Assembly: GCF_014138265.1 (NCBI RefSeq)
Contig: NZ_JACGXL010000003.1
Location: forward strand, 248,001 to 312,000
Direction: 5' to 3'
Length of the DNA stretch: 64,000 nt
Source: Dokdonella fugitiva
Lineage (GTDB): Bacteria > Pseudomonadota > Gammaproteobacteria > Xanthomonadales > Rhodanobacteraceae
This document shows positions 1,184 through 40,297 of the stretch, one piece after another. The notes below the pieces were generated by a model. That model was not told the DNA's origin, ran no database searches, and saw nothing but the letters and a program-made list of their open reading frames with translations. The position numbers and the translations under genes are program-made. Each line of letters starts with the position of its first letter. Position 1 is the stretch's first letter.

Positions 1184-3835
1184 TCAGAATCCCTGCTCCA
1201 CGCGCAGGTAGACGACGCGGCCGACCGCGCTGTACGCGCTGCCGAAGACGCCGTTGTAGTCGATGAACGGCCGACGGTCGCCGGCGTTGATCGCGCCGAT
1301 CGCGAGCTGTGTCTTCGCGCTCGCGTGCCAGCCGAGCTGCAGGTCGAGCGTGGTGTAGGTCGGCACCCTCAGCGCACAGCTTTCCGATTCGGCATCGTAG
1401 GAATCGCAGTTGCGCTGCGAACCGATCACGTGCGCCTGCGCCGACGCGCTCCATGCACCGCCCTGCCAACTGACGCCGAGGTTCGCGCGATCGCGCGGAT
1501 AGCCGAGGTAACCGAGGGGAGCATTGGTACTGCCCTCGAATTCCTGTTCGGATCGCGTGATGCGCGACCACGACAGGTTCGCCTCGATGCGACCGAACGC
1601 GAAGTCGTGACCCGTGCGCAGGTCGACGTCGAAACCGCGCGTGAGCGAACTCACCGCGTTGACCTGCTGCGGCACGAGGATGCGTGCGATCTCGCCGTCA
1701 GCGTCGCGCTCGACCAGACCCTCGCGATAGACGTCGCAGGTGCGCCCGGCGTCGTGGCAGGCGATGTCGTTGAACAGCACCGTGTACATGTCGAGCTGCG
1801 TGATCGCGTTGTCGAAATGCGTGCGGAAGCCCTGCACACCGACACTGAAGTCGCGCGTCGGCGAGAACACCGCACCGATGTTCGACTGGCGCGCGGTCTC
1901 GGCACCGAGTTTCGGATTGGAGAAGAATACGAGCTCGCGCACCGGGCTGCCGCAGGCGATCGGATCGTCCGGGCGCAGCTGGCAACCGAGCAGGTCGGTG
2001 ATCTGCGATTCGCTCGTGTAGGTCGGCGCGCCGAGCGTGACGAGGTCGGGCACGTGGAAGCCCTTGCCGATGCTCGCGCGCAGCAGCAGCGAATCGGTCG
2101 GGCGCCACATCGCCGACAGCTTCGGGCTCGTCGCGCCGCCCGCGTCGCTGTAGTCGTCGCGTCGCAGCGCGGCCTTGAGCTGCCAGCGGCCGTTGTTGTT
2201 CAGCGCGACCTCGGTGAAGGCGGCATGGTGGTTGCGCGTGAGGTCGACCGGCGTCGCCGGCACGCCGCCGAACACGTCGCCGGCGAGCTGCTGGTCGTCG
2301 TAGCCGGTCGCGAGACTCTCGTGCGCGTAGTCGAGGCCGACCAGCACATCCAGTGGAACGTCGAACAGCGAGTACGAGCGCGGCTGCAGCTGGAACGACG
2401 CCCCCTGCGTACGGTGCACGGCCGTGCTCGAGATCGACGTGCGGAACTGCGAGAAGTCCTGCGTCGCGGGATCGGCGAACGGATCGAAGGTGCCGGCGGA
2501 GATCGCGTCGAGGAAACGCGAGACGCTCGCGTAGTTCGTTCCTTCGAGGTCTTCCGCGTAGCGCGTGCCCGTCAGGTCGAGGTTCCAGTCCGCTTCCCAG
2601 CCGCCGACGTGCGTGCCGCCGAGGCCGGTCGTGAGCTGCTCGACGCGGTCGTCGCCGCGGTTGATGCGCGGCCCGGCGGGTACGGGTCGATAGGCGAGGT
2701 CGAGCGAATAGCCGAGGCCGGGCGCGACTTCGCCGAGCGTCGGGTTGAACGGGCTGTCCGCCGGAATCGCATCGGCGAGCGCGCCGGTCGGCGCGGGTGC
2801 GAGTTCGGCGCGCGAGCGGTTGCGCGATACGAGCAGCAGCGCATGCGCGTTCATCGAGTCGCCGACCGCGGTCGAGCCTTGCGCGAGCAGCGTCTTGCGC
2901 TCGAGCGCGGCGCGCAGCTCGGCGTCCGCCTGGAAGTTGTACTGGCAGAACTGGCCATAGTCCTCGTAGTAAGGCCCGAGCGCGGAATTCGGATAGCGTG
3001 GGTCGCTGCCGAGCGTCTGCGGGCAGTCGGCCGCCGCGTGCCAGGTCTGGTCGACCTCGGGCGAGGGATCGTCGCGACGCCAGGTCGGCGGCGCGCCGTA
3101 CGACGACAGGCCCGGCGGAAGGTAGCTGCGCTGGCGCGCGAACAGCGGATCCTCCTTCGAGTAGTCGACGCTGAAGATCGCCTGGCTGCGCTCGTCGTGG
3201 AAACCGGCGAGCGCGCTCGCGCTGTTCGCGTCGGCGCCGCTCGCGGTGGGCCGATCGACCTGCGCGGTGACCGCGGCGCCGCTGAAATCGCGGCGCGTGA
3301 TCACGTTGATCACGCCGCCGACCGCGCTCGAGCCGTACACCGCCGACGCGCCGTCACCGAGGATTTCGATGCGATCGACGGCGGCCCACGGCAGCACGTT
3401 GAGGTTCTGCGCGTCGCCACCGAGCGACCCCTGCCCGATCAGCGGAATGCCGTTGAGCAGCACGAGCGTGTACTGCGCGCCGAGCCCGCGCAGGCCGGCC
3501 GTGGTCGTACCGGGCGCGCTCGTGGTCGGGTTGTGGTCGAGCGGCGCGCCGAAACTGTTCTGCGTGAGGTTCGCGAGCACGGCGCCGACCGAAGTGCGAC
3601 CCGATACCTGCAAGTCGTCGCGCGAGATGACGATGAGCGGCTGCAGGTCCTCCTGGTCGACGCGCTTCATGCGCGTGCCGGTGACCATGACCGGCGCGAG
3701 CTCGACTTCGTCGCCCGCCGGCTCGTCCTGGGCGATCGATGTCCGTCCGATGCCGAACCCGGCCAGCATGGCCAGGCCGAGCAACAGCGATCGGATGCGG
3801 TGTGCATGGACACGGTTCACATGGACACGTTTCAC
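1184..3835 (-). CDS. TonB-dependent outer-membrane receptor
   Basis: Outer-membrane beta-barrel receptor driven by TonB-ExbBD. The GTG at 3835 is chosen because GGGAGGAG lies 6-7 nt upstream; the open frame continues further but without a ribosome site. From this start the protein is 883 residues with a signal peptide ending near residue 36 (TSIAQ). The plug domain follows (VMVTGTRMKR, then LRGLGAQYTLVLLNGIPL and SAVYGSSAVGGVINVITRR), then a long barrel ending in phenylalanine (LRVEQGF), the usual C-terminal signal for BAM. No TonB, hydrolase or siderophore gene is adjacent, so the ligand is unknown. The first codons contain a 15-nt near-duplication. Confidence 0.93.
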   Translation of the reverse strand: MKRVHVNRVHAHRIRSLLLGLAMLAGFGIGRTSIAQDEPAGDEVELAPVMVTGTRMKRVDQEDLQPLIVISRDDLQVSGRTSVGAVLANLTQNSFGAPLDHNPTTSAPGTTTAGLRGLGAQYTLVLLNGIPLIGQGSLGGDAQNLNVLPWAAVDRIEILGDGASAVYGSSAVGGVINVITRRDFSGAAVTAQVDRPTASGADANSASALAGFHDERSQAIFSVDYSKEDPLFARQRSYLPPGLSSYGAPPTWRRDDPSPEVDQTWHAAADCPQTLGSDPRYPNSALGPYYEDYGQFCQYNFQADAELRAALERKTLLAQGSTAVGDSMNAHALLLVSRNRSRAELAPAPTGALADAIPADSPFNPTLGEVAPGLGYSLDLAYRPVPAGPRINRGDDRVEQLTTGLGGTHVGGWEADWNLDLTGTRYAEDLEGTNYASVSRFLDAISAGTFDPFADPATQDFSQFRTSISSTAVHRTQGASFQLQPRSYSLFDVPLDVLVGLDYAHESLATGYDDQQLAGDVFGGVPATPVDLTRNHHAAFTEVALNNNGRWQLKAALRRDDYSDAGGATSPKLSAMWRPTDSLLLRASIGKGFHVPDLVTLGAPTYTSESQITDLLGCQLRPDDPIACGSPVRELVFFSNPKLGAETARQSNIGAVFSPTRDFSVGVQGFRTHFDNAITQLDMYTVLFNDIACHDAGRTCDVYREGLVERDADGEIARILVPQQVNAVSSLTRGFDVDLRTGHDFAFGRIEANLSWSRITRSEQEFEGSTNAPLGYLGYPRDRANLGVSWQGGAWSASAQAHVIGSQRNCDSYDAESESCALRVPTYTTLDLQLGWHASAKTQLAIGAINAGDRRPFIDYNGVFGSAYSAVGRVVYLRVEQGF

Positions 3836-5519: not shown

Positions 5520-6038
5520 CTAGACAGTGCGCCGCCGGAATCCGGCCCATAGTGCGCCCGTGCCGAGCAGCACGTAGCAGATCAGGGTCCATCCCGGCAT
5601 CGTGATGCCGAGCAGGCGCCAGCTGCTTTCGCTGCAGTCGCCGCTCGCCATGAACGCCTTGCGGATCGCCTGGGCGAGCGGGAAGCGGTTGTCGAACAGC
5701 GTGTAGAAGTCCATCCCGCAACCGCCCATGAGCGGATCCGGCGGGTTCATCTGCATCCACAGGTGTTGCACGGCGATCACGCCGCCGACCACCGCGAACA
5801 AGGCCACGAGCAGCGCGTAGACGCGTCGACCGATCGTTCCGGGACGATGCAGCGCACCGACGAGGAAGAACACGCCCATGCCGACGAAGGCGCCGCGCTG
5901 GAACATGCATTTCGGGCACGGGACGATCCCCTGCTGGCGCTCGAGGATAAAGTAGGCGTAGGCGACCAGACCGAAGCAGATCAGTGCGCCGAGCGCGAAC
6001 TGCGCGCGGTAGGACCAGGCGAACGGGTTGGGATTCAT
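5520..6038 (-). CDS. dsbB: Disulfide bond formation protein B
   Basis: Inner-membrane oxidoreductase that reoxidises periplasmic DsbA and passes electrons to quinone. The 172 residues form four membrane segments. The first periplasmic loop carries the CPKC pair at residues 41 and 44, and the second carries cysteines at 107 (GGCGMDF) and 135 (SGDCSES), the expected pattern. A QRG follows the first pair, with Arg48 at the usual quinone-interacting position. No dsbA is adjacent. The gene ends 83 bp before the DAHP synthase start, and 45 bp separate its start from the upstream membrane protein. Confidence 0.95.
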   Translation of the reverse strand: MNPNPFAWSYRAQFALGALICFGLVAYAYFILERQQGIVPCPKCMFQRGAFVGMGVFFLVGALHRPGTIGRRVYALLVALFAVVGGVIAVQHLWMQMNPPDPLMGGCGMDFYTLFDNRFPLAQAIRKAFMASGDCSESSWRLLGITMPGWTLICYVLLGTGALWAGFRRRTV

Positions 6039-6083: not shown

Positions 6084-7316
6084 CTACAGGAAAAACCAGT
6101 GTGTCAGCGTGCCGACGTACATGCAGACCGCGAGCACGAGCCAAAGTGCCCACGTCGCGTATTCGACCGGCCGCGAACGATGTTCGCGGAACGCGAGCCA
6201 CAGCACGAGCGGCACCAGCACGTAGCGCAGCTCGACCAGCCACGACGCGGCGAGGAAAACGAGCGCGACCGGAAACAGCCAGTACGCCGACGATGGGCGC
6301 AGGCGGAAGGTCGCGAGCGAACAGGCGGCGCCCGCCGCGACCAGCGCGGCAAGCGCTCGTGCGTACCATCGTTGCTCGATCAACATGGGCAGATGGTTGT
6401 GCAGGTAGTACCACGGATAAGCGGTGTTGTACGGGTTATCGGCATGAAATCCGAACCAGAAGCCGCACGCGACCAGTACGGGGACGGCCGCGAGCAGCCA
6501 ACCCGGGCGATCGCGACGCAGCGCCGCGAGGAACGCGGGGAGTCCCTGAAGAACCTGCAGCGGGAGCAGCAGCCCGGCGACGAGCAGTGCGAATAACGGG
6601 TTGCCGGCGTGCAGCTTCGCGTCCGGATGCAGCGCGGCTTGCGTGCGCGACAGCGAGATCGAGCCGTTCCACGCCCAGAACGCGACGAACACCGCGAGCG
6701 GAACCACGTAGGGCCACAACGGCGCCAGCACGCGCACGGGCTCGCGCCGCGCGCGCTCGAGGGAATCGTCGCCGATCGCGAGCATGACGAGCAGGCCCGT
6801 CCAGACGACTTCGTGCTGGCGCACGCCGACGAGCGCCGTCGCGAACAACGCCGCGAGCACATGCCGGCGCGCGACGCTCGCCCACGCCGCCCACAGCAGC
6901 AGGGCGAGCGCGAGCACGTCGGTGTAGACGACGAAGAACAGTGGCACGAGGATCGGCAGCACGAGCAGCTGCGCGGTCGCGAGCGTCTCGGTACCGGGCC
7001 ACGCGCGTCGGCGCAACGCATGGAATCCTGCGACCGCGAACAGGCCGAACGCGGCATTCGCGAGGCGCGCCGCATCGAGCGAGGCCGCGCCGCATGCGCG
7101 CATCAGCGCGGCGACGAGCGCGTGGTAGCCCGGAATCGTCGTCAGCTCGGCGAGGATGCGATCCGTGCCGCGCAGGAACTGCGTGATCTGCGTGAAATGA
7201 TCGATCTCGTCGGTGAATGGCGCGCTGAGGCGTATCGCGACGATCGCGGCGACGTAGAGTGCGCCGAGCAGCAGTCCGAACGCCCACTGCGCTCCCGACG
7301 ACGATGCGCGTTCCAG
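6084..7316 (-). CDS. Polytopic membrane protein resembling ALG10/DIE2 glucosyltransferases
   Basis: About 410 residues with roughly ten hydrophobic segments. The motif order matches what I know of the eukaryotic ALG10/DIE2 family (dolichyl-phosphoglucose-dependent alpha-1,2-glucosyltransferase): FTDEIDHF (34-41), TTIPGYH (59-65), FFVVYTDVL (126-134), RQHEVVW (166-172), HADNPYNTAYPW (291-302) and ELRYVLVP (362-369). A GT-C fold transferase using a lipid-linked sugar is inferred; donor and acceptor are unknown. The start is unresolved: no ATG, GTG or TTG occurs in frame between the rplQ terminator and the first membrane segment. The CTG at 7316 is used provisionally; the next upstream option, GTG at 7463, lies inside rplQ and would add an arginine-rich shadow sequence. 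Confidence 0.7.
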   Translation of the reverse strand: MERASSSGAQWAFGLLLGALYVAAIVAIRLSAPFTDEIDHFTQITQFLRGTDRILAELTTIPGYHALVAALMRACGAASLDAARLANAAFGLFAVAGFHALRRRAWPGTETLATAQLLVLPILVPLFFVVYTDVLALALLLWAAWASVARRHVLAALFATALVGVRQHEVVWTGLLVMLAIGDDSLERARREPVRVLAPLWPYVVPLAVFVAFWAWNGSISLSRTQAALHPDAKLHAGNPLFALLVAGLLLPLQVLQGLPAFLAALRRDRPGWLLAAVPVLVACGFWFGFHADNPYNTAYPWYYLHNHLPMLIEQRWYARALAALVAAGAACSLATFRLRPSSAYWLFPVALVFLAASWLVELRYVLVPLVLWLAFREHRSRPVEYATWALWLVLAVCMYVGTLTHWFFL

Positions 7317-7321
7317 AAACG

Positions 7322-7343
7322 AAAAACCCCGGACAGGCCGGGG
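7322..7343 (-). terminator. Intrinsic terminator after rplQ (alpha operon)
   Basis: On the - strand CCCCGG, a five-base loop CCTGT, CCGGGG and then TTTTTC form a compact GC stem with a U-tract, 27 bp after the rplQ stop. This is a standard intrinsic terminator for the long ribosomal protein cluster. It directly abuts the next reading frame. Confidence 0.85.
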
Positions 7344-7369
7344 CTCTTCGCTGCTTGGCTGCCGTGGCG

Positions 7370-7759
7370 TCAATCGGCCGCCTGGTCGCCCGCATCGGAA
7401 CGCGGACGATCGACCAGTTCGACGTACGCCATCGGCGCGTTGTCGCCGGCGCGGAAACCGCACTTGAGCAGGCGCAGGTAGCCGCCCTTGCGCTCGCGGT
7501 AACGCGGGCCGAGTTCGACGAACAGCTTGCCGACCGCTTCCTTGTCGCGCAGGCGCGCGAACGCGAGGCGGCGATTGGCCACGCCGTCGGTCTTCGCGAG
7601 CGTGATGAGCGGCTCGGCGACGCGGCGCAATTCCTTCGCCTTCGGCAACGTGGTGCGGATGAGCTCGTGCTTGAACAGCGATGCAGCCATGTTCTTGAAC
7701 ATCGCTTCGCGATGGCTGCTCGTGCGGCTGAACTTGCGACCGGCCTTCTGGTGGCGCAT
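7370..7759 (-). CDS. rplQ: 50S ribosomal protein L17 (bL17)
   Basis: Large-subunit protein located near the peptide exit tunnel. The 129 residues begin [20 protein letters not shown], a typical L17 N-terminus, and include [13 protein letters not shown] and a C-terminal [15 protein letters not shown] segment. It is the last gene of the alpha operon, 254 bp after rpoA, and is followed by a U-tailed hairpin. Length and sequence are normal for proteobacteria. Confidence 0.98.
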
Positions 7760-9089: not shown

Positions 9090-9722
9090 TTACTTCGAGT
9101 ACAGCTCGATGATCAGGCTTTCGTTGATGTCCGACGGCAGGTCGGAGCGTTCCGGCAGCGTCTTGAACAGGCCGCTCGCCTTCTTCGCGTCGACTTCGAC
9201 CCACGACGGGGTGAGGTCCATTTCCTGCGAGACCGTCAGCGATTCCTGCACGCGCAGCTGGCTCTTGGCGCGTTCACTCAGCGCGACCTCGTCGCCCGGA
9301 CGCACCTGGTACGACGGCAGGTTGACCTTCTTGCCATTCACGCGAACGGCGGCATGCGACACCAGCTGGCGCGCGGCAGCGCGCGTCACGGCGAAGCCCA
9401 TGCGGAAGACGACGTTGTCCAGGCGCGATTCGAGCATGCGCAGGAGGTTCTCGCCCGTGTTGCCCTTCTGGCCCGAAGCCTTCTGGTAGTACGAGTGGAA
9501 CTGGCGCTCGAGCAGGCCGTAGATGCGCTTTACCTTCTGCTTTTCGCGCAGCTGCACGCCGTAGTCCGACAGGCGGCCGCGCTTGGCGCCGGCGGCGCCA
9601 TGCTGGCCGGGCTTTTGCTCCAGCTTGCACTTCGAATCGAGCGCGCGCGCGGGGCTCTTGAGGCTGAGGTCGGCGCCTTCGCGGCGCGCGAGCTTGCAGG
9701 TGGGTCCGAGATAACGAGCCAT
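9090..9722 (-). CDS. rpsD: 30S ribosomal protein S4 (uS4)
   Basis: Primary 16S rRNA-binding protein that nucleates 30S assembly and, in enterobacteria, represses the alpha operon translationally. The 210 residues open [16 protein letters not shown] and include the S4 RNA-binding domain around [19 protein letters not shown]. Only two cysteines occur in the N-terminal region, so this is the zinc-free form. Fifteen base pairs separate it from rpsK. Confidence 0.98.
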
Positions 9723-9737
9723 GGTTCCTGTTTCCCC

Positions 9738-10130
9738 TTACACGCGACGCTTCTTCGGCGGACGGCATCCGTTGTGCGGAATCGGCGTCACGTCGATGAT
9801 GTTGGTGACCTTGAAGCCCGCATTGTTCAGCGAGCGCACGGCCGATTCACGACCCGGACCCGGACCCTTGATGCGCACTTCGACCGTCTTCACGCCGTAG
9901 TCGGCGGCGACGCGCGCCGCCTTGTCCGCGGCGACCTGCGCGGCGAACGGCGTCGACTTGCGCGAGCCACGGAAACCGGCGCCGCCGGCAGTCGCCCACG
10001 AAAGCGCGTTGCCCTGGCGGTCGGTAATCGTGACGATCGTGTTGTTGAACGAAGCCTGCACATGGGCGACGGCGTCCGTCACCACACGCTTGGTCTTCTT
10101 CTTAGGCTTGACTGCTACGGGTTTGTTCAT
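9738..10130 (-). CDS. rpsK: 30S ribosomal protein S11 (uS11)
   Basis: Platform protein of the 30S subunit near the Shine-Dalgarno helix. The 130 residues contain [20 protein letters not shown] and [20 protein letters not shown], and end [11 protein letters not shown], the conserved basic tail. The N-terminus [15 protein letters not shown] is lysine-rich. It lies 14 bp after rpsM and is clearly cotranscribed. Confidence 0.98.
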
Positions 10131-10144
10131 TTGCCCGGATATCC

Positions 10145-10501
10145 TTACTTCTTGATGGCGCGGCGCGGGCCCTTGCGGGTGCGCGCGTTGGTACGGGTAC
10201 GCTGGCCGCGCAGCGGCAGGCCGCGACGATGGCGCAGGCCGCGGTAGGTACCGAGGTCGATCAGGCGCTTGATCGACATGCCGACTTCACGGCGCAGGTC
10301 GCCTTCGACCGTGACCTTGCCGATCTCATGGCGCAGCTTGTCGACCTCGGCCTCGGTCAAGTCCTTGATCTTGGCTGCCGGATTGACACCCGCGTCAGCG
10401 CAGACCTTCTTCGCGCGCGAACGGCCGATGCCGAAAATGCTCTGCAGGCCGATCACGACATGCTTTTGAACCGGAAGATTGACACCCGCAATGCGTGCCA
10501 T
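10145..10501 (-). CDS. rpsM: 30S ribosomal protein S13 (uS13)
   Basis: Head protein of the 30S subunit that forms inter-subunit bridges and contacts P-site tRNA. The 118 residues run from [19 protein letters not shown] through [16 protein letters not shown] to the basic tail [18 protein letters not shown]. It is the first gene of the alpha operon. The 115-bp gap to secY contains a -10-like sequence and a hairpin, but no rpmJ. Confidence 0.98.
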
Positions 10502-10548
10502 GCTTGTTGATCTCCAGAAAAACTACTTAAGTGCGCAGAGAACTTGAC

Positions 10549-10585
10549 ATTATATCCGGTTTACCCCTGCCGGGGAACCCCCGGC
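10549..10585 (-). promoter_or_regulatory. Candidate alpha-operon promoter and hairpin (secY-rpsM gap)
   Basis: On the - strand a perfect TATAAT (10549-10554) lies 48 nt upstream of the rpsM start. No good -35 hexamer is spaced correctly (the position reads TTCCCC). Just upstream is a 7-bp perfect hairpin, GCCGGGG-GTT-CCCCGGC (10569-10585), with no U-tract. Together they could separate alpha-operon transcription from spc. The space normally held by rpmJ is occupied by this element. Confidence 0.45.
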
Positions 10586-10616
10586 CCCGAGGGCCCGGAT
10601 CTGGATCTTTTGCCGC

Positions 10617-11930
10617 TCAACGGCCGCGCAAATTCGCCTTTTTGAGCAGACTTTCGTACTGATGCGAAACCAGGTGCGCCTGGATCTGGGCGGTGAAGTC
10701 CATGACCACGACCACCACGATCAGCAGGGACGTGCCGCCGAAGTAGAACGGCACGTGCCACGCGTTGCGCAGGATGTCCGGCACCAGGCAGACCGCCACG
10801 AGGTAGAGCGCGCCGGCACCCGTCAGGCGGGTCAGGACACCATCGATGTAGTCGGCCGTCGCCTTGCCCGGGCGCAGGCCCGGGATCAGCGCACCCGAGC
10901 GCTTGAGGTTGTCCGCGGTTTCCTGCGAATTGAACGTCAGCGCCGTGTAGAAGTACGCGAACACGATGATCAGCAGCGCGTACAGCAACATGTGCAGCGG
11001 CTCGCCCGGACCGAGGGACGCGGTCAGCACCTGCAACCAGTGGATCTCGTTGGAATTGTTGAACCAAGTCGCCGCGGTCGCCGGGAACATCAGCAAGGAC
11101 GACGCGAAGATCGGCGGGATCACGCCCGACATGTTGATCTTCAGCGGCAGATGCGAACTCTGGTTCATGTAGGCCTTGCCCGCCCCACCCTGGCGACGCG
11201 CATAGTTCACCGTGATGCGACGCTGGCCGCGCTCCATGAACACGACGAACGCGGTCACGGCGAGCACGATCACGAACACGATCAGGACGCGCAGGATCGG
11301 CAATTCGCCGGTCTGCGCCATGCCGAGCGTATGCACGACGGCCGCGGGCAGCCCCGCCACGATGCCGGAGAAGATCAGCAGCGAGATGCCGTTGCCGATG
11401 CCGCGCTCGGTGATCTGCTCGCCGAGCCACATCAGGAACATCGTGCCGGCGGTGAGGCCGACGACGGTCGTGAAGATGAAGCTCGGGCCGGGCGCATAGA
11501 CGATGCCGGTCTGCGCCTGCAGCATCGATGCGACACCGAACGACTGGAACAGCGCCAGCGCGACCGTACCGAAGCGCGTGTAGGTGGTCAGCTTGCGCCG
11601 TCCCGCCTCGCCTTCCTTGCGCAGTTGCTGCCAGGTCGGGATCACCGACGCGAACATCTGCACGATGATCGACGCCGAGATGTAAGGAATCACACCGAGG
11701 GCGAAGATCGACAGTCGGCTCAGCGCACCACCCGAGAACATGTTGAACATGTCGAGCAGGCCGCCGCCCTGCTGGATGCGACGCGCCATCTCTTCCGGAT
11801 TGACGCCCGGCACCGGGATGAACGAGCCGAGCCGGTACACGACCAGCGCGCCGATCACGAACAGCAGGCGCTGCTTCAGCTCGGTCAACTTGCCGAGCGA
11901 AGCGAGCGGATTGGACTGCGAAGACGCCAC
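10617..11930 (-). CDS. secY: Preprotein translocase subunit SecY
   Basis: Central channel of the SecYEG translocon in the inner membrane. The 437 residues form about ten transmembrane segments, beginning after [20 protein letters not shown]. Conserved parts include [17 protein letters not shown], a cytosolic loop that contacts SecA and the ribosome, and [18 protein letters not shown]. It closes the spc operon after rplO (4-bp gap). Its partner gene secE lies near 38500 in the same window. Confidence 0.99.
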
Positions 11931-11934
11931 GCGC

Positions 11935-12369
11935 TTACTCCACGCTGCCGCCGGCAGCCTCGATCGCGGCCTTGGCGCCGGCGGTGACCGCCACGCCCTT
12001 GAGCTTCACCGCGCGCTTGATGTCGCCCTTCTTCACGATCTTCGCGCGTTCGGCGCGGGTCTCGATCAGGCCGGCGGCCTTGAGCACGTCGAAATCGACC
12101 ACGTCGGCCTTGAGCGAATCGAGCTGGTAGAGCAGCACTTCGCTGACCTCGTGGGCCTTCTTGGAACGGAAACCGACCTTCGGCAGGCGGCGCTGCAGCG
12201 GCATCTGGCCGCCTTCGAAGCCGGCCTTGACCTTGCCCTTGCCGGCGCGCGCGTACTGACCCTTGTGACCACGGCCAGCGGTCTTGCCGAGGCCCGAACC
12301 GATGCCGCGACCGACGCGGACGCGATCCTTGCGGGCACCAGCGGCGGGCTTGAGTGTGTTGAGACGCAT
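11935..12369 (-). CDS. rplO: 50S ribosomal protein L15 (uL15)
   Basis: Late-assembling 50S protein. The 144 residues show the diagnostic glycine- and basic-rich N-terminus: [20 protein letters not shown], then [17 protein letters not shown] and [17 protein letters not shown]. The C-terminal domain ends [11 protein letters not shown]. It sits between rpmD (65 bp upstream) and secY. Confidence 0.98.
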
Positions 12370-12434
12370 GTCAATCGACTCCAGAGAAATTGCTAGTTCG
12401 AGGCATTGAACGCGAGTTCAATGCCCCGGGCGTC

Positions 12435-12641
12435 TCAGACGCCTTCCTCGATGCGGACCAAATAGCTGACCTGGTTCACCAGGCCGCGCACCGACGGCGA
12501 ATCGACCAGTTCACGCACGTCGTTGAGCTTGCGCAGGCCGAGCGCGCGCACGCTGACGCGATGGCGTTCCTGGCAACCGTTGATGCTCTTGAACAGGCGG
12601 ACGCGGATCGTCTTGCCTGCCTTCGCGTTCGTCTTAGCCAT
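12435..12641 (-). CDS. rpmD: 50S ribosomal protein L30 (uL30)
   Basis: Small 50S protein, here 68 residues, with the family core [19 protein letters not shown] and [19 protein letters not shown]. The start ATG overlaps the end of rpsE by 8 bp, which suggests translational coupling. The N-terminal MAKTNAKAG extension is a few residues longer than in E. coli. Confidence 0.96.
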
Positions 12642-13146
12642 TGCCCATCACCTCGTCGACCGACTTGCCGCGCTTGGACGCGATGCGCTCCGGCGACACC
12701 ATCGCCTGCAGGCCGTTGATCGTCGCGCGCACCAGGTTGATCGGGTTGCGCGAACCGACCGCCTTGGCCAGAACGTTCTTGACGCCGACCACTTCGAGCA
12801 CGGCGCGCATCGCGCCGCCGGCGATCACGCCGGTGCCTTCGGACGCCGGCTGCATGAACACCTTCGCCGCGCCGTGGTTGGCCTTCACCGCATGGAACAG
12901 CGTGCCGTTGTTGAGGTCGACCTTGACCATGCCCTTGCGCGCGCGCTCCATCGCCTTCGAGATCGCGACCGGCACTTCGCGCGCCTTGCCGTAACCGAAG
13001 CCGACGCGGCCATCGCCGTCACCGACGACGGTCAGTGCCGTGAAGCTCATCTGGCGGCCGCCCTTGACGGTCTTCGCCACGCGGTTCACCGCGATCAGCT
13101 TCTCGAGGAAGCCGTCGCTGTTCTCACGTTCGTTCGTATTCGCCAT
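12634..13146 (-). CDS. rpsE: 30S ribosomal protein S5 (uS5)
   Basis: 30S protein that helps set decoding accuracy and mRNA unwinding. The 170 residues include the dsRNA-binding-like N-terminal domain ([20 protein letters not shown]) and [19 protein letters not shown], then [20 protein letters not shown]. Its stop overlaps the rpmD start. A 182-bp gap separates it from rplR upstream. Confidence 0.98.
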
Positions 13147-13328
13147 GTTTCACCTGTCATGCCGCCCGCCGGAGCGGTTGCGGACTTCTGCTTGCGGCAT
13201 TGCCGCTTGGAGTTGTGATGGAACGGTTCCGGAACGGCTCAATCCGGTTGTTGCTGCGCCTGCCCTGGCGCCCGGCGTGGTGCGCCGGTTTGGTGCATGT
13301 CGGCGCGGCCGCGGACGGCCGCGCGCGA
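13147..13328 (-). other. rplR-rpsE spacer with a UNCG-class hairpin
   Basis: A 182-bp spacer, long for the spc operon. At 13303-13324 a perfect 9-bp stem closes a four-base loop that reads UCCG in the transcript. The same 16-nt core recurs at 14784-14799 in the rpsN-rpsH spacer. No reading frame with a ribosome site is seen here. Confidence 0.45.
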
Positions 13329-13682
13329 TCAGAACTTCAGGCCCGCTTCGCGCGCAGCTTCCGCGAGCGCCTGGATGCGGCCGTGGTAACGGAAGCCCGA
13401 GCGGTCGAACGCGACCTTCTCGACGCCCGCCTTCAGCGCGGCCTCGGCGACGGCCTTGCCGACGGCGGCGGCCGCGGCCTTGTTCTTGGTGCCCTTCAGG
13501 CTTTCAGCGATCGCCTTCTGCGTGGTCGACGCGGCCGCGATGACCTTGTCGCCCTCGGCGGTCTGCACCTGCGCGTAGATGTGCTGCCCGCTGCGATGCA
13601 CGCTCAGGCGCGGCACGCCCAGCGTGCGGATGTGTGCGCGCGTGGACTTGGCGCGGCGGAGTCTTGCGATGTTCTTTTCCAT
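13329..13682 (-). CDS. rplR: 50S ribosomal protein L18 (uL18)
   Basis: Binds 5S rRNA with L5 and L25 to form the central protuberance. The 117 residues begin [19 protein letters not shown] and contain [15 protein letters not shown] and the conserved C-terminal [20 protein letters not shown]. It follows rplF by 95 bp. Length is normal. Confidence 0.98.

Positions 13683-21808: not shown

Positions 21809-22999
<1,191 letters not shown>

Positions 23000-39106: not shown

Positions 39107-40297
<1,191 letters not shown>

Follow-up and report, generated by a model that had tools for sequence, protein, structure and literature searches.

A bacterial member of the DIE2/ALG10 (GT59) family in Dokdonella fugitiva and a proposed role in periplasmic sugar transfer

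The window analysed here, a stretch of 64,000 nucleotides from Dokdonella fugitiva, carries between rplQ and dsbB a gene whose predicted membrane protein has the motifs of ALG10, and the locus raises the question of what such a protein is and what it might do in a bacterium. ALG10/DIE2 (GT59) is the Dol-P-Glc:Glc2Man9GlcNAc2-PP-Dol alpha-1,2-glucosyltransferase of the eukaryotic ER. A 2016 survey (Lombard) reported that Alg3, 6, 8, 9, 10 and 12 appear unique to eukaryotes and that the prokaryotic matches in its profile searches were mostly PMT or DUF2029 proteins (PMC4973528), and searches of the open-licence literature turned up no account of an ALG10 or GT59 protein from bacteria. The branch described below, found in Dokdonella and several relatives, probably represents a membrane sugar-transfer enzyme that has apparently gone undescribed.

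Organization of the locus

The alg10-like gene and its immediate surroundings are as follows.

7370..7759, minus strand: rplQ (ribosomal protein L17), closing the ribosomal protein operon; neighbour on the upstream side, named from sequence
7322..7343, minus strand: rplQ terminator-like hairpin, CCCCGG-cctgt-CCGGGG-TTTTT (CCCCGGcctgtCCGGGG then TTTTT), from sequence reading
6084..7373, minus strand: alg10-like gene for a putative polytopic membrane glycosyltransferase of the DIE2/ALG10 family, from the ORF, PF04922, codon bias and AF2 model
5520..6038, minus strand: dsbB (disulfide bond formation protein B), neighbour on the downstream side, from NCBIfam PRK04388 and synteny

The alg10-like gene is a single minus-strand ORF that stops at 6084 and contains 429 codons when counted from its most upstream plausible start, a TTG at 7373 that overlaps the rplQ stop codon (ATTGA). 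The rplQ hairpin falls within the part of the ORF that could be annotated as its 5' end, and this arrangement, together with the TTG overlap, is kept in several Dokdonella genomes; similar hairpins are present at most syntenic loci, and the one in the window was not reported by the consensus scan. From the hairpin (7327-7343) to the first membrane helix the frame contains no ATG, GTG or TTG, and the conserved protein sequence starts near 7290. The translation start is uncertain because the first 28 codons show no codon-position bias (substitutions 4/5/4), are mostly poorly modelled (residues 1-25 of the AlphaFold2 model) and contain the hairpin; the start may be coupled or attenuated, or may use a non-standard codon. 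The protein has about 400-429 residues. Downstream of this region the ORF is genuinely coding and under strong purifying selection: in a comparison of 401 codons with an 85% identical copy from Dokdonella fugitiva (L003), the first, second and third codon positions carry 52, 24 and 132 substitutions, and 118 of the codon changes are synonymous against 55 non-synonymous. Its GC content (0.682) and GC3 (0.847) both match those of its neighbours.

The order rplQ, alg10-like gene, dsbB, class II DAHP synthase (gene names from sequence reading) is shared by Dokdonella and loci from four further genera in the family, with the dsbB assignment resting on a PRK04388 match (E 1.6e-42) of 145 bits, slightly below the cut-off of 168. 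The same rplQ-to-DAHP synthase order is seen in a fifth genus, from a second family (G1014, locus L098), where it holds two alg10-like copies. Twelve relatives were checked at dsbB, and no copy was called in the gap between rplQ and dsbB in any of them, nor did tblastn find a remnant there; ten lack any family match, and the other two (G079 and G101) have copies elsewhere. A functional link to dsbB or the ribosomal genes was rejected, given the empty site in these relatives and the different location in other genera. The gene lies outside any glycan cluster in the window's genome, with no donor synthase or flippase linked to it. Among other features of the window, we note a TonB-dependent-receptor-like protein (1184-3784, minus strand; sequence reading) downstream of the DAHP synthase, and two tuf-like genes (21809-22999 and 39107-40297) on the same strand and about 16 kb apart, whose predicted products are of equal length and identical in their first 70 residues. 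Two tuf genes are common in proteobacteria.

Family membership, conserved residues and fold

The initial annotation placed the protein in the DIE2/ALG10 family, and profile searches bear this out. PF04922 (DIE2_ALG10, Pfam-A) matches with 88.2 bits (E=9e-25) against a curated cut-off of 27 and is the sole significant Pfam family; the match covers profile positions 3-167 and 207-389 of 391, in two stretches. Relatives score 85-151 bits, and in four the alignment runs unbroken from end to end (L101, 151 bits over positions 3-389; L099, 139; L048 copy 2, 116; L107, 85). The profile is specific, because none of 14 control genomes contains a match and because a PMT_2 GT-C protein encoded beside the alg10-like copies of genome G797 matches PMT_2 and not PF04922. 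No other GT-C Pfam model, PMT and PMT_2 included, was found for the alg10-like protein at E up to 10, NCBIfam models gave no match, and PDB sequence searches returned nothing relevant, whether started from the protein or from the alignment. By sequence, the protein belongs to the DIE2/ALG10 family, with a resemblance well beyond what chance would give (E=9e-25).

Six ALG10-like motifs had been described in order across 6084-7316, with no strand given, and all six are present in the one minus-strand ORF, as listed here with their conservation among 39 bacterial members.

7194-7217, minus strand: FTDEIDHF, outer loop 1, residues 53-60; D55 and E56 invariant
7122-7142, minus strand: TTIPGYH, residues 78-84; H84 invariant
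6912-6938, minus strand: FFVVYTDVL, residues 146-154; Y150 and T151 invariant, D152 in 38/39
6801-6821, minus strand: RQHEVVW, residues 185-191; R185 and Q186 invariant
6411-6446, minus strand: HADNPYNTAYPW, residues 310-321; N316 invariant
6210-6233, minus strand: ELRYVLVP, residues 381-388; R383 and Y384 invariant

The ALG10 motif set (DE..H, PG.., YTD, RQ..W, DN/N and E.RY) is conserved across the 39 proteins, in which 13 residues are invariant (D55, E56, H84, R103, P140, Y150, T151, R185, Q186, P271, N316, R383 and Y384). Most of these are in, or border on, loops placed outside by the model and by the distribution of Lys and Arg. The residue correspondence between bacterial and eukaryotic ALG10 is based on the profile match and on the motifs given in the initial annotation.

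An AlphaFold2 model of the protein, built from 24 aligned sequences, has a pLDDT of 89.8 and a pTM of 0.89. The comparison with GT-C structures that had been suggested for such a model came out in favour of that class: the leading Foldseek matches in the PDB are GT-C enzymes (ArnT, STT3, Pmt4, ALG12, ALG3, GPI mannosyltransferase I, ALG9, PimE and EmbB), and the first transporter appears at rank 20. The E-values are weak, that of the best match, ArnT (5ezm), being 2.7e-3, and no ALG10 structure is listed among the matches. On these weak E-values the modelled protein is assigned to the GT-C fold class; the contrary outcome named in the initial annotation, the lack of a PF04922 match together with a best structural match to an unrelated permease or a GT39 enzyme, was not obtained. 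A search of BFVD gave weak viral matches only, the best (E 1.3e-3) being a Nitrosopumilus virus protein of unknown function.

D55 follows TM1, where it caps the first juxtamembrane helix. This is the position of D58 in PimE, the catalytic Asp that the authors of that structure equate with those of ALG6, ArnT and PglB (PMC12041525), and by analogy D55 is a candidate catalytic base.

Distribution and possible origin of the bacterial branch

Genomes were sampled for carriers within the window's phylum. Carriers make up 11 of 16 genomes of the genus, 22/198 of the family, 8/43 of family f263 and 18/200 in an order-wide sample, two of these last being weak partial matches. Outside the order, 369 genomes sampled from the class yielded one strong carrier, G797, from a more distant gammaproteobacterial family, and the sole real match in a phylum sample (n=398) is the window itself. 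G922 and G470 are weak partial matches, the latter with internal stop codons, and were set aside. Tandem pairs occur in G064, G101, G797 and G1014. Identities within the bacterial branch fall as low as 26%, and a tree of 39 proteins, in which the root is arbitrary, sets a group of f262, f263 and G797 sequences against one formed by the window's family and G1014. Plasmids searched by tblastn and viral contigs searched with a 26-sequence alignment gave no match.

A bold reading of this pattern is that the bacterial branch is the sister or the source of eukaryotic ALG10, not a borrowed eukaryotic gene; we hold it as tentative and on balance doubtful. If it were true, the terminal glucosyltransferase of ER N-glycan assembly would have evolved from a periplasmic GT-C of bacteria acting on an envelope glycan, contrary to the published view that places the origin of the ER-luminal transferases within eukaryotes, from PMT-like enzymes. 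The several dozen bacterial sequences now make the origin of the ER enzyme directly testable by phylogeny. They also offer material for a first experimental structure of the GT59 type, no ALG10 entry being present in the PDB searched.

Proposed function and alternatives

ALG10 is classed in GT59 as an inverting enzyme that uses a lipid-phosphate-monosaccharide donor (PMC3204403; PMC10920833), and GT59 is without an assigned structural subclass (PMC10920833). We consider it quite likely that the Dokdonella protein is a bacterial DIE2/ALG10 (GT59) inverting GT-C that acts in the periplasm, with an undecaprenyl-phosphate hexose as donor and an envelope acceptor. A plausible scenario is that a cytoplasmic GT2 synthase makes an undecaprenyl-phosphate-linked hexose, which would be flipped across the membrane and used by the alg10-like enzyme, a polytopic inner-membrane GT-C whose active site would face the periplasm. 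This enzyme would move one hexose, with inversion, onto a periplasmic envelope glycan or glycolipid, D55 serving as the base that activates the acceptor hydroxyl and the invariant Arg, His and Asn residues holding the lipid phosphate. Catalysis, the polyprenyl-phosphate donor and the periplasmic site are what we infer for the protein; glucose as the sugar and an alpha-1,2 linkage are a guess extrapolated from ALG10. The gene would thereby point to a step of periplasmic glycosylation, so far undescribed, in Xanthomonadales-type bacteria.

Bacterial three-component systems, composed of a lipid-phosphate-sugar synthase, a flippase and a periplasmic GT-C, are established for the decoration of periplasmic glycans (PMC11127046), an analogy that leaves the identity of the sugar unfixed. 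The polyprenyl-phosphoglucose donor put forward in the initial annotation is plausible, given the GT-C fold, the invariant outer-loop Asp, the GT2 proteins of the genome and the DPM-type GT2 of G797. In G797 the two tandem copies adjoin a DPM/Alg5-type GT2 (PF00535) that has no evident membrane helices and whose NCBIfam matches are largely polyprenyl- or dolichyl-phosphate sugar synthases, all below cut-off; the PMT_2 GT-C and putative GDP-fucose synthesis genes (sequence reading) are also nearby. The window's genome encodes GT2 proteins of DPM/Alg5 type on other contigs. The highest scores of these synthase-type GT2s are with the AglJ and PpgS models (hexose and HexNAc), every one of them under its cut-off.

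A eukaryote-like N-glycan pathway is an unlikely setting in the window's organism because its genome has no STT3 match. PF02516 (STT3) finds no match in 12 of 13 carriers, the window's genome included, and a single PglB-like protein in G797. Alg6_Alg8 (PF03155) also has no match in the window's genome, a weak absence since no controls matched either. ALG6/ALG8 and STT3, the partners of ALG10 in N-glycosylation, were not found as a set in the carriers, the PF03155 part of this result being weak.

Comparison with known systems places the protein closest to ALG10, which it resembles in matching PF04922 over nearly the full profile, in motif order and in conserved outer-loop residues, and also in being a polytopic protein of GT-C type, about 430 residues long, that has 12-13 membrane helices. 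For ALG10 itself 12 or 13 helices are given, depending on the paper (PMC3204403 among them). It differs in being bacterial and encoded by a standalone gene in a genome without an STT3 match, and the Glc2Man9GlcNAc2 precursor is an improbable acceptor for it. The proposed logic of synthase, flippase and periplasmic GT-C acting on an envelope glycan is that of GtrA/GtrB/Gtr* O-antigen glucosylation and of the GT136 systems, whereas here the GT-C belongs to PF04922 and the three parts are unclustered in the window's genome. The GT-C fold and a lipid-phosphate donor would be shared with ArnT (GT83), the top structural match, and bacterial PMT (GT39), although the protein matches neither PMT nor PMT_2 by sequence profile. 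In PimE, a mycobacterial GT-C with an alpha-1,2 product, the first outer-loop helix likewise carries an Asp at its tip, the catalytic one, but PimE is of another sequence family and uses a mannose donor and a mycobacterial PIM acceptor.

Several other explanations were weighed. Bacterial GT-Cs are numerous and ArnT is the best fold match, so that a generic enzyme of the PMT/ArnT (GT39/GT83) type with ALG10-like motifs gained by convergence might be imagined; this is disfavoured to the point of being hardly credible, with 88 bits to PF04922 set against no PMT, PMT_2 or other GT-C model at E up to 10, relatives reaching 151 bits end to end, and a true PMT_2 protein that misses PF04922. Only slightly better placed, and very improbable, is a non-catalytic scaffold like PIGU in GPI transamidase. 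PIGU is a GT-C-like non-transferase (PMC12041525), which shows that the fold need not imply glycosyl transfer, and chain U of GPI transamidase (8imx_U) is among the fold matches; the invariance of the outer-loop Asp and of Arg, Tyr, His and Asn residues in 39/39 proteins fits an active site instead. The patchy distribution (11/16 genomes in the genus, 22/198 in the family) could suggest a eukaryotic ALG10 gene recently captured by one bacterium, or assembly contamination, yet the ribosomal-operon site shared by Dokdonella and four other genera, the native GC and GC3, the strong purifying selection, and the deep divergence and resolved tree of the bacterial branch make this improbable. An old transfer of an ALG10 gene between bacteria and eukaryotes, in either direction, is still conceivable.

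The identity of the donor admits a further alternative, in which family and fold are as described and the enzyme uses another lipid-linked sugar (Man, Gal, GlcNAc/GalNAc or a pentose) and is not a glucosyltransferase. GT-C families switch donor sugar readily, a pentofuranose-specific GT136 having been described (PMC11127046), the best models for the GT2 synthases of the genome are AglJ and PpgS (again below cut-off), and the divergent tandem copies in four genomes suggest differences in specificity. ALG10/GT59 is however described as glucose-transferring (PMC3204403) and the family motifs are retained, and we regard another donor as possible though rather unlikely.

Apart from the proposed inverting hexosyltransferase, a few proteins at other loci are worth recording. 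A 333-residue protein beside the G797 copies (L048:5379-6380, plus strand) is weakly STELLO-like (E 6e-5, below the curated cut-off). On contig C1 of genome G000 (L083:6705-9193, minus strand) a GT2 akin to polyprenyl-phosphate sugar synthases adjoins a DDEW-motif GT-C-like protein that has no Pfam family and a weak match to Agl23 (TIGR03663); the two are possibly a second lipid-phosphate-sugar pair in the window's genome. At L027, two adjacent TPR membrane proteins of about 600 aa (9591-11402 and 11520-13337, plus strand) lie directly 3' of the alg10-like gene; Pfam detects the TPR part only, and on sequence reading the pair resembles TMTC-type GT-C proteins.
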